This document shows, one piece after another, positions 32,776 to 60,171 of a stretch of DNA of 64,000 nt. Below the pieces are notes generated by a model, which was not told the origin of the DNA, did no database searches, and saw nothing but the letters and a program-made list of their open reading frames with translations. Position numbers and translations under genes: made by a program. Within the stretch, counting starts at the first letter, position 1. Every line of letters begins with the position of its first letter. Origin of the DNA: Planctomycetota bacterium (GTDB lineage: Bacteria; Planctomycetota; UBA8742; UBA2392); the NCBI GenBank assembly GCA_019636195.1, contig JAHBYA010000003.1, positions 62,001-126,000 of the forward strand. The letters are read 5' to 3'.

Positions 32776-33003
32776 TCAAATCGCGAACAGGCCCGCTTGG
32801 CGGGGTATGCTCCATGACGTTCGCACAGACCCGGCCCTCACGGGCCGAGCCTGCCTTCCGCGACCTTCCGCAGACTACACAGGTAAAGCCCACAAGGCTG
32901 TTATCTGCGTCTCTGCGTTGATTTGGATCTGCCGCGAAATCAGTTTCAGGTTCAGCCACGGTGGCCACCGAGAAACCCGGAGAAAAGCAGGACATCAGGC
33001 TGA

Positions 33004-33052
33004 GCAGGATAGACAGGATTCACTTCCATGAAGTTCATCCTGCTTGTCCTGC
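33004..33052. repeat. AGGAT-word inverted repeat
   Basis: GCAGGATAGACAGGATT (33004-33020) is nearly the reverse complement of CATCCTGCTTGTCCTGC (33036-33052). A second element of the same word family is at 44005-44057. Confidence 0.6.
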
Positions 33053-33253
33053 CAATCCTGATGATTTACTCGGTGTCACTCCGTGCGCACCGTGGCTGCC
33101 GTAAACTGCGGCCTCTCGCCATGTTCGCCATTTGAAGGCAGTTAATGGCGTACTTGGGCGAGGTCTGCGAGAGGCTTGCATTAAACTGCCGTCAACTCTT
33201 CGCGGCCTTCGCGACACCTTGGCGTCTTCGCGTGAACACCGTTTCAGGTTTAG

Positions 33254-33270
33254 CCACGGAGGACACGGAG
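33254..33270. repeat. Solo CACGGAG-word repeat
   Basis: CCACGGAGGACACGGAG belongs to the same word family as the inverted repeats around the GxxExxY gene (58980-59008 and 59391-59419), but no gene is attached here. Confidence 0.6.
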
Positions 33271-48816: not shown

Positions 48817-49956
48817 ATGGCCAAGAAGTCCGACTACCTGAACAAGAAGCAACTCGTCAAGCACATCGACATCACCAAGCTGAAAGATATCGACACGCTG
48901 GTTGCCGCCATGGGCGACACCAGCTTCAGCGCGCGCAACCTGTCGCGCGCCGCCGACATCTTTGACATGGCGCTGCGCGACAAGAACTGCAATGTCGTGC
49001 TGTGCCTCGCCGGCAGCCTTGTCAGCGCGGGCCTGAAGAAGGTCATCACCGACATGGTCAACGCCAACATGGTTGACGCCATCGTTTCCACGGGCGCGAT
49101 CATTGTTGACCAGGACTTCTTTGAAGGCCTGGGCTTCAGCCACTACAAGGGCACGCCCTTCGTCAATGACGCCGAGCTGCGCGAGCTTGCGATCGACCGC
49201 ATCTACGACCACTACATCGACGAAGACGAGCTGCGCGTGTGCGACGACACCATGACCCGCCTGTTTGACGGCCTTGAACCGCGCCCCTACACCAGCCGTG
49301 AAGTGATTCACGCCATGGGCGCGTATCTGGTCAAGCACGGCAAGAAGCACGACGGCTTTGTCGAAGCCTGCTACAAGAAGAACATCCCGATCTTCGTGCC
49401 GGCATTCGCCGACTGCAGCGCGGGCTTCGGCATTGTGCTGCACCAGCACAAGCGCTTGCAGTCCGGCAAGCCCATGGTCACGCTGGATGGCGGCCGCGAC
49501 TTCCTTGAGCTCACGTACCTGAAAATGTTCGCGAGCAAAGACACCGCCATTGTCATGATCGGCGGCGGCGTGCCCAAGAACTTTGTGCAGGACACCGTGG
49601 TCGCCGCCGAGGTGCTGGGCCAGCACGACGCGCCCATGCACAAGTACGCGATCCAGCTTACTGTCGCCGACGAGCGCGACGGGGCGCTGAGCGGCAGCAC
49701 CCTCAAAGAGGCTTCAAGCTGGGGCAAGGTAAGCCTGAACTACGAGCAGATGGTGTTTGGTGAAGCCACGATTACCCTGCCGCTGCTGGCCGGCAGCGTG
49801 TATCACCGCGGCGCGCACAAAAGCCGCAAGGCCCGCGAGCTGTCGCTGTACTTTGAAGGCGACAAGTTCCTCGGCAAAAAGAAGGCCGCCAAGAAGGGAA
49901 GCAAGAGCCCGAAGCGCCAGCGAGGGAACAAGCCGCAACCCGTGGCCGTTGGCTAA
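48817..49956 (+). CDS. Deoxyhypusine synthase family protein (bacterial homologue)
   Basis: A 379-residue protein starting MAKKSDYLNKKQLVKHIDIT, with AGGAG 7 bases before the ATG. DHS features are ARNLSRAADIFDMALRDKNC, LCLAGSLVSAGLKKVITDMV, VDAIVSTGAIIVDQDFFEGL, and the NAD-binding AIVMIGGGVPKNFVQDTVVA. The active-site segment EASSWGKVSLNYEQMVFG contains Lys304, the equivalent of the lysine that forms the enzyme-butylimine intermediate in human DHS. A Lys/Arg-rich tail (KKKAAKKGSKSPKRQRGNK) is an addition. DHS modifies eIF5A in archaea and eukaryotes. Bacteria have EF-P instead, so the substrate here is unknown; polyamine conjugation such as homospermidine formation is possible. It is a monocistronic unit with terminators on both sides. 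Confidence 0.92.
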   Translation: MAKKSDYLNKKQLVKHIDITKLKDIDTLVAAMGDTSFSARNLSRAADIFDMALRDKNCNVVLCLAGSLVSAGLKKVITDMVNANMVDAIVSTGAIIVDQDFFEGLGFSHYKGTPFVNDAELRELAIDRIYDHYIDEDELRVCDDTMTRLFDGLEPRPYTSREVIHAMGAYLVKHGKKHDGFVEACYKKNIPIFVPAFADCSAGFGIVLHQHKRLQSGKPMVTLDGGRDFLELTYLKMFASKDTAIVMIGGGVPKNFVQDTVVAAEVLGQHDAPMHKYAIQLTVADERDGALSGSTLKEASSWGKVSLNYEQMVFGEATITLPLLAGSVYHRGAHKSRKARELSLYFEGDKFLGKKKAAKKGSKSPKRQRGNKPQPVAVG

Positions 49957-49985
49957 CCGCCAAGGGCCGCGAAGTACTGCCAGTC

Positions 49986-50019
49986 ACAAACCGCGCCTTT
50001 GGCGCGGTTTGTTCTTTTG
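49986..50019 (+). terminator. Terminator after the deoxyhypusine-synthase-like gene
   Basis: ACAAACCGCGCC (49986-49997) pairs perfectly with GGCGCGGTTTGT (50001-50012) around TTT, followed by TCTTTTGG. It is the strongest terminator in the window. Confidence 0.9.
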
Positions 50020-50089
50020 GCGGCTCCTTACGGCCCTTGGCGGTGCAACTGCTTGCCGAACGGCGGGCACGTTGCCATCCTCTGCGGCC

Positions 50090-57950: not shown

Positions 57951-57963
57951 GAAGCTGCAGTCA

Positions 57964-57989
57964 ACGGTTGACGGTCGACGGTCAACCGT
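57964..57989. repeat. ACGGTNR-word palindrome between fabH and fabD
   Basis: ACGGTTGAC (57964-57972) and GTCAACCGT (57981-57989) are exact inverted arms around GGTCGACG, so the word ACGGTYR occurs three times in a row. It is the same style of element as the AGGAT, TCATTGACC and CACGGAG repeats elsewhere. Confidence 0.55.
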
Positions 57990-58037
57990 GACTGCCGTGA
58001 AACCAGTTGTTTCCGTAAACCGTGGACCGTGAACCCA

Positions 58038-58979
58038 ATGGCCAAGACTGCACTGCTTTTCCCCGGACAGGGCGCCCAGCATATCGGCATGGGCAAAGAC
58101 CTGTGTGACGCCTACCCCCGCGCGCGCGATGTGTTTGCCCGCGCTGACGAGTTGCTGGGCTTTGAACTGACCCGCGTCTGCTTTGAAGGCCCTGAGTCCG
58201 AGCTCAACCGCACCGACGTTTCCCAGCCGGCAATTCTCGTGCACTCGTGGGCCGTTGTCGAAGTGCTCAAGACCACCGACAGGGGCCGTGAGTTGCTGGC
58301 GCGCGGGCAGGTTGCCGCGGGCCTGAGCCTTGGCGAGTACTCGGCGCTGGCGGCCGCCGGCGCGCTTGGTTGGGAAGACGCATGCCGGCTGGTGCGCAAG
58401 CGCGGCCAGTACATGCAGCAGGCTTGCGACCTGAAGCCCAGCACCATGGCCAGCATCGTCGGCCTTGACGACGAAGCGCTGGAAGCGGCGATTGCCCCGG
58501 CGCGCGACAAGGGCGTGGTTGTGCTGGCAAATTTCAACGCCCCCGGTCAGGTCGCAATCAGCGGCGAAACAGCGGCTGTGCAGGACGCCATGGCGCTGGC
58601 CAAGGCGGCGGGCGCCAAGCTGACAGTGCCGCTTGCGGTGGCGGGGGCGTTTCACAGCCCGCTGATGGAGCCCGCGCGCGAGAGACTGGCGGCTGAGATC
58701 GAGACGACGACATTCAATTCGCCGAACACCGGCGTGATTGCCAATGTGGACGCGACCGAGCACCGCGACCCGGCAATCATGAAAGCCAACCTCGTGCAGC
58801 AGCTGACAGCGCCCGTGCTGTGGGCCAAGTCGATGCAGAAGCTGGTCGAGCAGGGCTATGACGAGTTCATTGAACTCGGGCCCGGCACCGTACTCGCAGG
58901 CCTGCTGAAGCGAGTGGCCAAGACCGCCACCCGCACCAGCATAGGCAAAGCCACCGAGGTTGCCGCGGCGACTGCTTAG
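58038..58979 (+). CDS. fabD: Malonyl-CoA:ACP transacylase
   Basis: A 313-residue protein from MAKTALLFPGQGAQHIGMGK (a GTG three codons earlier is possible). Hallmarks are LLFPGQGAQHIGMG, the nucleophile GLSLGEYSALAAAGALGWED, RGQYMQQACDLKPSTMASIV with the Arg that binds malonate, and the catalytic His in VAGAFHSPLMEPARERLAAE. It loads malonate onto ACP. Its TAG stop is followed at the very next base by the left 29-bp inverted repeat of the GxxExxY cassette. Thus the cassette sits exactly in the fabD-fabG gap, where genes are normally adjacent. Confidence 0.98.
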   Translation: MAKTALLFPGQGAQHIGMGKDLCDAYPRARDVFARADELLGFELTRVCFEGPESELNRTDVSQPAILVHSWAVVEVLKTTDRGRELLARGQVAAGLSLGEYSALAAAGALGWEDACRLVRKRGQYMQQACDLKPSTMASIVGLDDEALEAAIAPARDKGVVVLANFNAPGQVAISGETAAVQDAMALAKAAGAKLTVPLAVAGAFHSPLMEPARERLAAEIETTTFNSPNTGVIANVDATEHRDPAIMKANLVQQLTAPVLWAKSMQKLVEQGYDEFIELGPGTVLAGLLKRVAKTATRTSIGKATEVAAATA

Positions 58980-59008
58980 TCCACGGAGGTCACGGAAGGC
59001 ACGGAGGA
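58980..59008 (+). repeat. Left inverted repeat of the GxxExxY cassette
   Basis: Three tandem CACGGAG-type words directly after the fabD stop. The third word supplies GGAGGA for the downstream ATG at 59013. It pairs with 59391-59419 over 29 positions with 3 mismatches (positions 10, 20 and 28). Confidence 0.8.
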
Positions 59009-59012
59009 AGTG

Positions 59013-59390
59013 ATGGGCGGCCTGATTCTTGAACAGGAACGATCTGCAATCATCGGTGCCGCAATCGAAGTCCACAAAATTCTGGGGCCCGGGTTTCTTG
59101 AGGCTGTGTACCAGGAGGCCCTGGGACTGGAACTTGCAGAGCGCGGCATCCCTTTTGAGCCGCAGAAGCCCCTGAAGATGCGCTTCAAACAGTGGACCTT
59201 GAAAAAAGAGTACGTACCTGACTTCCTGTGCTTTGGCTCAGTTGTAGTGGAAATCAAGGCCATGAAGGCTTTGACCAGCCAGGAGCAGGCGATTGCTTTG
59301 AACTACTTGCGTGCGTCAGGCTTTCGCGTCTGTATCTTGATCAACTTTGGCAGCCACGGGAAACTCGAGTTTCAGCCGATCGTGCTGTGA
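59013..59390 (+). CDS. GxxExxY protein (PD-(D/E)XK_3 nuclease-like)
   Basis: A 125-residue protein from the ATG at 59013 (a GTG at 59010 adds one residue). The name-giving motif is GPGFLEAVYQEALGLELAER. A PD-(D/E)XK core follows: VPDFLCFGSVVVEIKAMKAL, with Asp in PDF and Glu-x-Lys in VEIKA, an intact nuclease-type triad. The end (NYLRASGFRVCILINFGSHG) matches TIGR04256/PF13366. The family is widespread, often multi-copy in Planctomycetota, Verrucomicrobiota and Lentisphaerae, and has no proven function. Here it interrupts fabD-fabG and is enclosed by inverted repeats. Codons ending in A/T (ctt, gaa, ttt, aaa) are commoner than in neighbouring genes, suggesting acquisition. Confidence 0.95.
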   Translation: MGGLILEQERSAIIGAAIEVHKILGPGFLEAVYQEALGLELAERGIPFEPQKPLKMRFKQWTLKKEYVPDFLCFGSVVVEIKAMKALTSQEQAIALNYLRASGFRVCILINFGSHGKLEFQPIVL

Positions 59391-59419
59391 TTCTCCGTGT
59401 CTTCCGTGAACTCCGTGGA
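59391..59419 (-). repeat. Right inverted repeat of the GxxExxY cassette
   Basis: The reverse complement of the left repeat with 3 mismatches in 29 bases, beginning right after the TGA of the GxxExxY gene. Read on the plus strand its outer end, CCGTGGAGG, with the next bases, provides the GGAGG ribosome-binding site of fabG (GTG start at 59428). Confidence 0.8.
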
Positions 59420-59427
59420 GGATTGCC

Positions 59428-60171
59428 GTGCAGTTGAACGGTCGCAAAGCGTTGATTACCGGGGCGTCGCGTGGCATTGGCCGGGCGATTGCAATTGCGT
59501 TTGCGCAGCAGGGCGCGCAGGTGGCGCTGGCGGCGACATCCGCCGACAGGCTGGTCGAAACGGCCGCCATGTGCCAGGAGCAAAACAAGCTGGACGTGGC
59601 CATGTTCGGCCTTGACGTGCGCGACCCCAAGGCCTGCGAAGCCGCCGTCAAGGCGACGGTGGATAAATTCGGCGGCCTGGACATTGTTGTGAACAACGCC
59701 GGTGTCACGCGCGACAACCTGCTGATGCGGCTGAGCGACGAAGACTACGACGCCGTGCTCGACACCAACTTGCGCGGCGCGTTCAACATTACGCGCGCAG
59801 CCTCGCGCCCGCTGATGAAGTCCAAGGCCGGCCGCCTGATCAACATTGCCAGCGTCGTCGGCATTGTCGGCAACGCGGGCCAAGCCAACTACGCCGCCAG
59901 CAAGGGCGGCTTGATCGCGTTTACCAAGTCTGTGGCCAAAGAGCTGGCTGGCCGCGGCGTGACGGCCAACGTGATCGCCCCCGGCTTCATTGAAACGGAC
60001 ATGACCGCAAGCCTTGACGCCAAGGTCAAAGAAGAGGCGTTGAAGGGCATACGGCTGGGGCGCTTCGGCAAACCGGAAGACATCGCGCAGGCGGCGGTGT
60101 ATCTGGCCAGCGACGCCGGCAGCTACATCACGGCCCAGGTTCTGGTAATCGACGGCGGGATGACAGCCTAG
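59428..60171 (+). CDS. fabG: 3-oxoacyl-ACP reductase
   Basis: A 247-residue short-chain dehydrogenase with a GTG start. The NADP motif is ALITGASRGIGRAIAIAFA, NNAGVTRDNLLMRLSDEDYD follows, and the catalytic Ser-Tyr-Lys is in NIASVVGIVGNAGQANYAAS then KGG. PGFIETDMTASL and the ending YITAQVLVIDGGM are typical FabG. It reduces 3-oxoacyl-ACP in each elongation cycle. GGAGG lies 6 bases before the GTG and belongs to the right repeat of the cassette. The usual acpP and fabF do not follow; instead, after 33 bases, comes the carboxyltransferase gene. Confidence 0.97.
   Translation: MQLNGRKALITGASRGIGRAIAIAFAQQGAQVALAATSADRLVETAAMCQEQNKLDVAMFGLDVRDPKACEAAVKATVDKFGGLDIVVNNAGVTRDNLLMRLSDEDYDAVLDTNLRGAFNITRAASRPLMKSKAGRLINIASVVGIVGNAGQANYAASKGGLIAFTKSVAKELAGRGVTANVIAPGFIETDMTASLDAKVKEEALKGIRLGRFGKPEDIAQAAVYLASDAGSYITAQVLVIDGGMTA

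Follow-up and report, generated by a model that had tools for sequence, protein, structure and literature searches.

A nuclease-like gene between inverted word arrays: a candidate minimal mobile element of the GxxExxY family

What is a gene of the GxxExxY family, a multicopy family without an established function, doing between the essential fatty-acid genes fabD and fabG of a planctomycete? The question is raised by a 64,000-nucleotide stretch of DNA (contig JAHBYA010000003.1 of assembly GCA_019636195.1, positions 62,001 to 126,000; hereafter, the window is this whole stretch), in which the gene and the two inverted repeats, or arms, around it form a cassette of roughly 440 bp. The same arrangement is found around about 75–80% of GxxExxY genes, with arms that match each other, differ from one cassette to the next, and follow the sequence of the protein. 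We would put it at slightly better than an even chance that the cassette is a minimal selfish element, whose putative nuclease works on the word arrays of its own arms and also supplies gene-less derivatives similar to miniature inverted-repeat transposable elements (MITEs).

The cassette, its cognate arms, and their words

The window belongs to a 3.9-Mb metagenome-assembled genome (MAG; G000) of the Planctomycetota. The three genes are co-directional, and the parts of the locus are as follows.

58038 to 58979, forward strand: fabD (PF00698), the upstream flank, whose orthologues were used for the empty-site test
58980 to 59008, forward strand: left arm, three 7-nt words (CACGGAG, CACGGAA, CACGGAG) at a 9-nt period, with GGAGGA upstream of the GxxExxY start
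59010 to 59390, forward strand: GxxExxY gene (PF13366 PDDEXK_3 / TIGR04256), 126 aa, predicted PD-(D/E)XK fold, triad D71, E81, and K83
59391 to 59419, reverse strand: right arm, an inverted copy of the left arm
59428 to 60171, forward strand: fabG (PF13561/PF00106), the downstream flank

The left arm reads TCCACGGAGGTCACGGAAGGCACGGAGGA and the right arm, when reverse-complemented, TCCACGGAGTTCACGGAAGACACGGAGAA. An original prediction, made from the letters of the window, had described 29-bp arms with 3 mismatches, each starting right after a stop codon, and both features were confirmed (3 mismatches in 29; fabD TAG at 58977-58979 and GxxExxY TGA at 59388-59390). The pair is the longest inverted repeat in its 2.4-kb region (27 nt at 93%) and has the highest complementarity among pairs of at least 20 nt in the whole window. 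Its local score is 23, compared to a mean of 9.4 and a maximum of 17 for dinucleotide-shuffled flanks, and 0/3000 shuffles reach 23. The gene is also poorer in GC than its neighbors by 10–13 percentage points, as had been predicted: its GC is 0.535 (0.67 at third codon positions, GC3), compared to 0.66 and 0.64 (GC3 0.80 and 0.83) for fabD and fabG.

Cognate arms are not peculiar to this locus. In the Planctomycetota, 41 genomes were searched, giving 117 non-redundant GxxExxY loci, most of them from MAGs, and each gene’s upstream and downstream flanks were scored for complementarity to each other. The flanks of other GxxExxY genes had been named as the place to look, and inverted repeats were found there: a gene’s own arms pass in 75% of the 117 loci, compared to 6.7% of random or swapped pairs and 8.8% of pairs swapped inside one genome, and fabD flanks, used as a control, pass in 1/29. 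Another 72 loci, from at least 15 phyla as judged by record titles, gave 79% passing compared to 20% of swapped pairs, the latter rate being this high because close relatives share words. Chance inverted repeats were rejected by the swapped-arm, within-genome-swap, fabD-flank, and shuffle controls. The left arm usually ends 0–40 nt before the protein domain, and the right arm usually begins 0–20 nt after the stop codon. The window genome itself has ten PF13366 genes, and six of the paralogues each carry an inverted pair with words of a different kind (CCGCGAAGG, CACAGATT, CGCCAAG, ACAGAG, GCGACG, and CACGAAGG). No match was found in phage records. On a Geobacter sp. contig (PJFB01000011.1; L265), three GxxExxY copies lie within 3.4 kb and encode proteins that are 98% identical, at a synonymous divergence (dS) of about 0.1; this triplet is possibly a recent local amplification.

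Each arm is composed of two to four tandem words with a 9–10-nt period and the grammar CRCNRAG. CRCNRA occurs in the sense direction in 118/137 GxxExxY arms, and left arms are purine-rich on the sense strand in 118/136. The words vary between copies and agree between both arms, and those of one cassette tend to change jointly. The expectation that the ends co-vary with the protein was borne out, since arm similarity tracks protein identity (Spearman 0.29, permutation maximum 0.09), with a mean arm similarity of 0.58 at 60–80% protein identity and of 0.26–0.30 below 50%. The relationship also holds between the Planctomycetota and other phyla. Arms and protein are both under constraint: the arms of orthologous pairs are identical at 59/60, 61/62, and 66/68 positions with dS values of 0.90, 0.56, and 0.43, and the ratio of nonsynonymous to synonymous divergence of the protein is about 0.05–0.15 in most such pairs.

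The claim that the arms are built of CACGGAG-type words stands for the three-word array of the window’s left arm, but CACGGAG is one of many word types. Single CACGGAG words occur in the window at chance (12 seen, 11.5 expected) and other copies use other words, so CACGGAG as a unique word was rejected. Three-word arrays, by comparison, number 10 in the window genome and 0 for the reversed control. The suggestion that the ends carry ribosome-binding sites likewise survived for one end, as the left arm can act as the donor in about a third of copies (41/119). The right arm of the window gives fabG’s GGAGG only its first GGA, the other bases lying outside the arm. It is pyrimidine-rich in sense, as right arms are generally, and a role for the right arm as a general donor for the next gene was rejected.

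A further motif may mark the outer ends. (GA)ACTGC lies at or beyond the arms in many cassettes of the window’s bacterial family, and ACTGC is found in or just outside the left arm in 16/83 cassettes, the right arm in 27/83, and both in 11/83, against a background of 5.6% per 67-nt interval. The two candidates at this locus are the following.

58970 to 58975, forward strand: possible outer end motif GACTGC in the fabD tail, weakly indicated in the window itself
59430 to 59435, reverse strand: possible outer end motif AACTGC over the first fabG codons, a candidate

The architecture is shared by a second family. Genes of PF05635, the family of the protein of 23S rRNA intervening sequences (IVSs), have cognate inverted arms in the same genomes in 81% of cases compared to 4.5% of swapped pairs (n = 26). 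Their arms use other words, mostly with a 7-nt period, and CRCNRA in sense was seen in 0/21.

Filled sites, empty sites, and gene-less palindromes

Empty fabD–fabG junctions in relatives had been proposed as a check, and GxxExxY is absent from this junction in 12/12 same-family relatives that have both genes in the fetched stretch. The gap between the genes is 11–67 nt in seven of those twelve. Two relatives carry something else there. In G012 (L031:2440-3480), an R2K_3 ATP-grasp gene lies antisense inside inverted CTCACGCAGAG / CACGCAGAG arrays, and in G006 (L027:2443-3432), an R2K_3 ATP-grasp gene lies antisense between fabD and fabG without clear arms. An independent GxxExxY cassette, with the words CGCGAAGG, occupies the same junction in the alphaproteobacterium Sphingomonas parapaucimobilis YK209 (L407:1940-2420), raising the question of whether this is a preferred site.

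Presence and absence at orthologous sites can also be followed within one genus (g3). At site S132, a cassette is present in G014, and three aligned relatives are empty. Site S160 holds a cassette in G014 but not in G008 or G015, which were the remaining genomes with both flanks aligned. At two more sites, a gene-less palindrome takes the place of the cassette in G014: at S134, both G008 and G013 have the cassette and G011 is empty, and at S130, G008 has the cassette and G011 is again empty (5 nt). Both palindromes carry the words of G014’s own cassettes, L132 and L160. Arrays of the L160 type number 25 in G014, 19 in G008, and 0 in G013, G011, and G004. Palindromes are also nested inside one another (L314, L323, L327, and L332).

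On a larger scale, three-word arrays were counted in 149 Planctomycetota genomes, with the reversed pattern as a control and kinship between genomes uncorrected; the pattern search covers one word grammar. The 74 genomes with PF13366 hold 1276 arrays compared to 110 in the 75 genomes without it, the reversed control giving 31 and 23. The link between arrays and GxxExxY across genomes is strong but not absolute. The original prediction had tied the word arrays to GxxExxY genes, and this needs to be relaxed, as they also occur as gene-less palindromes and around the R2K_3 gene in one relative’s fabD–fabG junction.

A putative nuclease and the competing explanations

The only open reading frame (ORF) of the cassette matches PF13366 (124 bits, cut-off 22, E 5e-36) and TIGR04256 (123.8 bits, cut-off 35), and no transposase of a known family was found in it. 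A search of PDB sequences for a solved relative of the protein found none. The AlphaFold (AF2) model is a confident alpha/beta fold (mean predicted local distance difference test score, pLDDT, 93.9), and its best PDB fold matches are the PD-(D/E)XK nucleases SSO0001, LHK-Exo, and lambda exonuclease (probability about 1.0, E about 0.002). The tRNA splicing endonucleases are among the matches too, with weak scores, and when viral models are compared, the second match is a “PD-(D/E)XK nuclease” from Halogranum tailed virus 1. The D…ExK triad that had been claimed was found as D71…E81-x-K83. By its modeled fold and this site, the protein fits the PD-(D/E)XK nuclease superfamily and is a putative nuclease. 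The triad is intact in 140/145 arm-bearing copies compared to 24/34 copies without arms. One lineage of vertically inherited orthologues (L016 and L187–L191), under purifying selection, has a degenerate triad and no arms and is possibly a domesticated copy.

How might such an element work? It would consist of a left word array, one small PD-(D/E)XK nuclease gene, and an inverted right word array. The nuclease may recognize the tandem 9–10-nt words of its own arms, each of which amounts to about one helical turn, and may cut or nick at them, perhaps at a hairpin or cruciform formed by the arms. Repair or replication could then put a copy of the palindromic unit into new intergenic sites. Palindromes that keep the words but are now gene-less would be moved in trans, as MITEs are moved by a transposase or REPINs (repetitive extragenic palindromic doublets forming hairpins) by RAYT, the associated tyrosine transposase. 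Insertion in the sense direction within operons would allow a promoterless gene to be transcribed with little harm. The original prediction of an operon-compatible mobile unit is supported by the cognate arms, the empty sites, and the co-variation; movement by the nuclease itself is something we infer.

Several observations weigh against a self-acting nuclease element. About a quarter of GxxExxY loci are without arms, and many of these have an intact triad. No movement of the cassette has been observed, and target-site duplications or exact junctions could not be read at any of the nine sites tried (five with a cassette and four gene-less), the closest genome pair being about 5–11% diverged at the sites compared. 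G008 has its 19 L160-type arrays, although searches of that incomplete genome found no intact GxxExxY gene of the L160 type. Also, 6/75 genomes without PF13366 still hold at least five arrays. Lastly, PF05635 is not a nuclease family and yet has the same architecture, so arms of this kind may do without a nuclease.

The main rival, which we consider unlikely, is an IVS-like element that acts at the RNA level. Within the polycistronic mRNA, the arms would form a long stem that loops out the ORF; RNase III, or GxxExxY acting on RNA, would process this stem, and the element would spread via an RNA or cDNA intermediate. Orientation speaks for it. When the directions of neighbors were called by a simple coding-frame heuristic, the cassettes with both neighbors callable had both in sense in 65 cases, mixed in 16, and both antisense in 0, and annotated loci in a plasmid collection are in sense in 5/5. 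This orientation fits expression by read-through as well as an RNA-level mechanism, and the antisense R2K_3 cassette in the same junction of G012 argues against the latter. The element, with its predicted stem, folds as RNA better than shuffles (z −4.6), but so does any inverted repeat. If pairing in RNA mattered, G-U mismatches in the transcribed strand of the arms might outnumber A-C mismatches; the bias is not significant, either overall (216 to 183, p 0.11) or when counted by element (62 to 49, p 0.25), and this test does not support the RNA stem as a selected feature. The nearest folds are mostly DNA nucleases, though the tRNA splicing endonucleases do appear weakly. In favor of the RNA-level explanation, size and ends match the 23S IVS of Coxiella burnetii, which is 444 nt long with a 28-bp terminal inverted repeat and a single S23p ORF and is cut by RNase III (PMC4990558). 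PF05635, the family of the IVS protein, shares the architecture and resembles Avd of diversity-generating retroelements (PMC10053308).

Less probable again is that the palindromes are mobilized by another factor, with GxxExxY, PF05635, R2K_3, and other genes as tolerated cargo. Gene-less arrays are indeed more numerous than gene-bearing ones, other cargo is seen (R2K_3 and a 110-aa membrane ORF), and some genomes have arrays without GxxExxY. Passengers, however, should not fix the words, and the link between words and protein makes this model less likely: arms co-vary with the GxxExxY sequence, grammar and period differ sharply between GxxExxY and PF05635, and the triad-degenerate orthologue lineage has lost its arms. 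It is very improbable that the operon gene is simply inherited vertically, with a stem-loop around it that is due to chance or serves regulation: apart from the Shine-Dalgarno-like sequence in the left arm, which speaks for it, this reading is opposed by the shuffles, by the absence of the gene from the fabD–fabG site in all same-family relatives examined, and by the recurrence of the pattern in about 75–80% of 189 loci.

Relation to known elements and further palindromes

The selfish element proposed here can be compared with three known systems. It resembles 23S rRNA IVSs in its length of about 440 nt, its 27–28-bp terminal inverted repeats, its one ORF, and its sporadic distribution. It differs in lying between fabD and fabG, outside the 23S rRNA gene, in encoding a PF13366 PD-(D/E)XK protein instead of the PF05635 four-helix bundle, and in the word grammar and period of its arms. 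Since PF05635 arms are cognate and the Coxiella IVS is near the dimensions of the window element, rRNA IVSs and GxxExxY cassettes look like variants that branch from a common architecture. With REPIN–RAYT systems it shares a single-gene element accompanied by many short gene-less palindromic copies per genome, repeats tied to an enzyme gene, and paired inverted repeats dispersed in the gene-carrying genome. In contrast to these, the cassette encodes no Y1/HUH tyrosine transposase, and its arms are tandem 9–10-nt words, whereas REPINs are GTAG-tagged hairpins. As in insertion sequences and MITEs, there are terminal inverted repeats, one gene, presence/absence polymorphism at orthologous sites, ORF-less derivatives, and nesting. 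Unlike them, the cassette has no known transposase, has arms of tandem words, is sense-oriented in operons, and is smaller than a typical insertion sequence.

A broader and more tentative proposal, which we hold at a little under an even chance, is that GxxExxY cassettes form an undescribed class of minimal mobile elements in at least 15 phyla. Here, a 125-aa PD-(D/E)XK nuclease would specify two inverted arrays of 9–10-nt words and give rise to MITE-like gene-less derivatives, with PF05635 as a sister class that has its own word code and the rRNA IVS as a special case. Such a proposal supplies the family with a testable function, that of a nuclease reading the word code in its own ends, and the protein-specific words make recognition directly testable. 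If true, it would account for a large class of palindromes between the genes of environmental bacteria and tie these to the IVSs of 23S rRNA, which have been known for a long time but lack an explanation. Searches of open-licence papers found no description of the arrays, and GxxExxY receives passing mentions there, in passages without flanking repeats or a tested function. Some genome papers, for example on Geobacter, may list similar multicopy repeats without linking them to GxxExxY.

Other palindromes were seen in the course of the work. At the fabH–fabD junction of the window (57951-58037), there is a word-array palindrome, AACGGTTGACGGTCGACGGTCAACC … AAACCGTGGACCGTGAACC, the words of which resemble the arms of a PF05635 cassette (L352) in G011. 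A gene-less palindrome at 49956-50044, ACCGCCAAGGGCCGCGAAG … CGGCCCTTGGCGGT, is built of the type of word seen in other GxxExxY cassettes of the window genome, and a cluster of degenerate, apparently nested palindromes (CCACGGTGGCCACCGAG, CAGGATAGACAGGATT, CTTCGCGGCCTTCGCG, and GCCACGGAGGACACGGAG) lies at 32953-33260. Elsewhere, palindromes of unrelated words (L305, ACCAATNAC; L302, GGATTTTGGATTG; L283, CCAGAATCCAAAATCC) were found at operon junctions where sister genomes have GxxExxY cassettes. In G031 (L059:1500-1893), inverted CACAGAGGA arrays surround a gene for a predicted membrane protein of 110 aa, and GxxExxY is absent.
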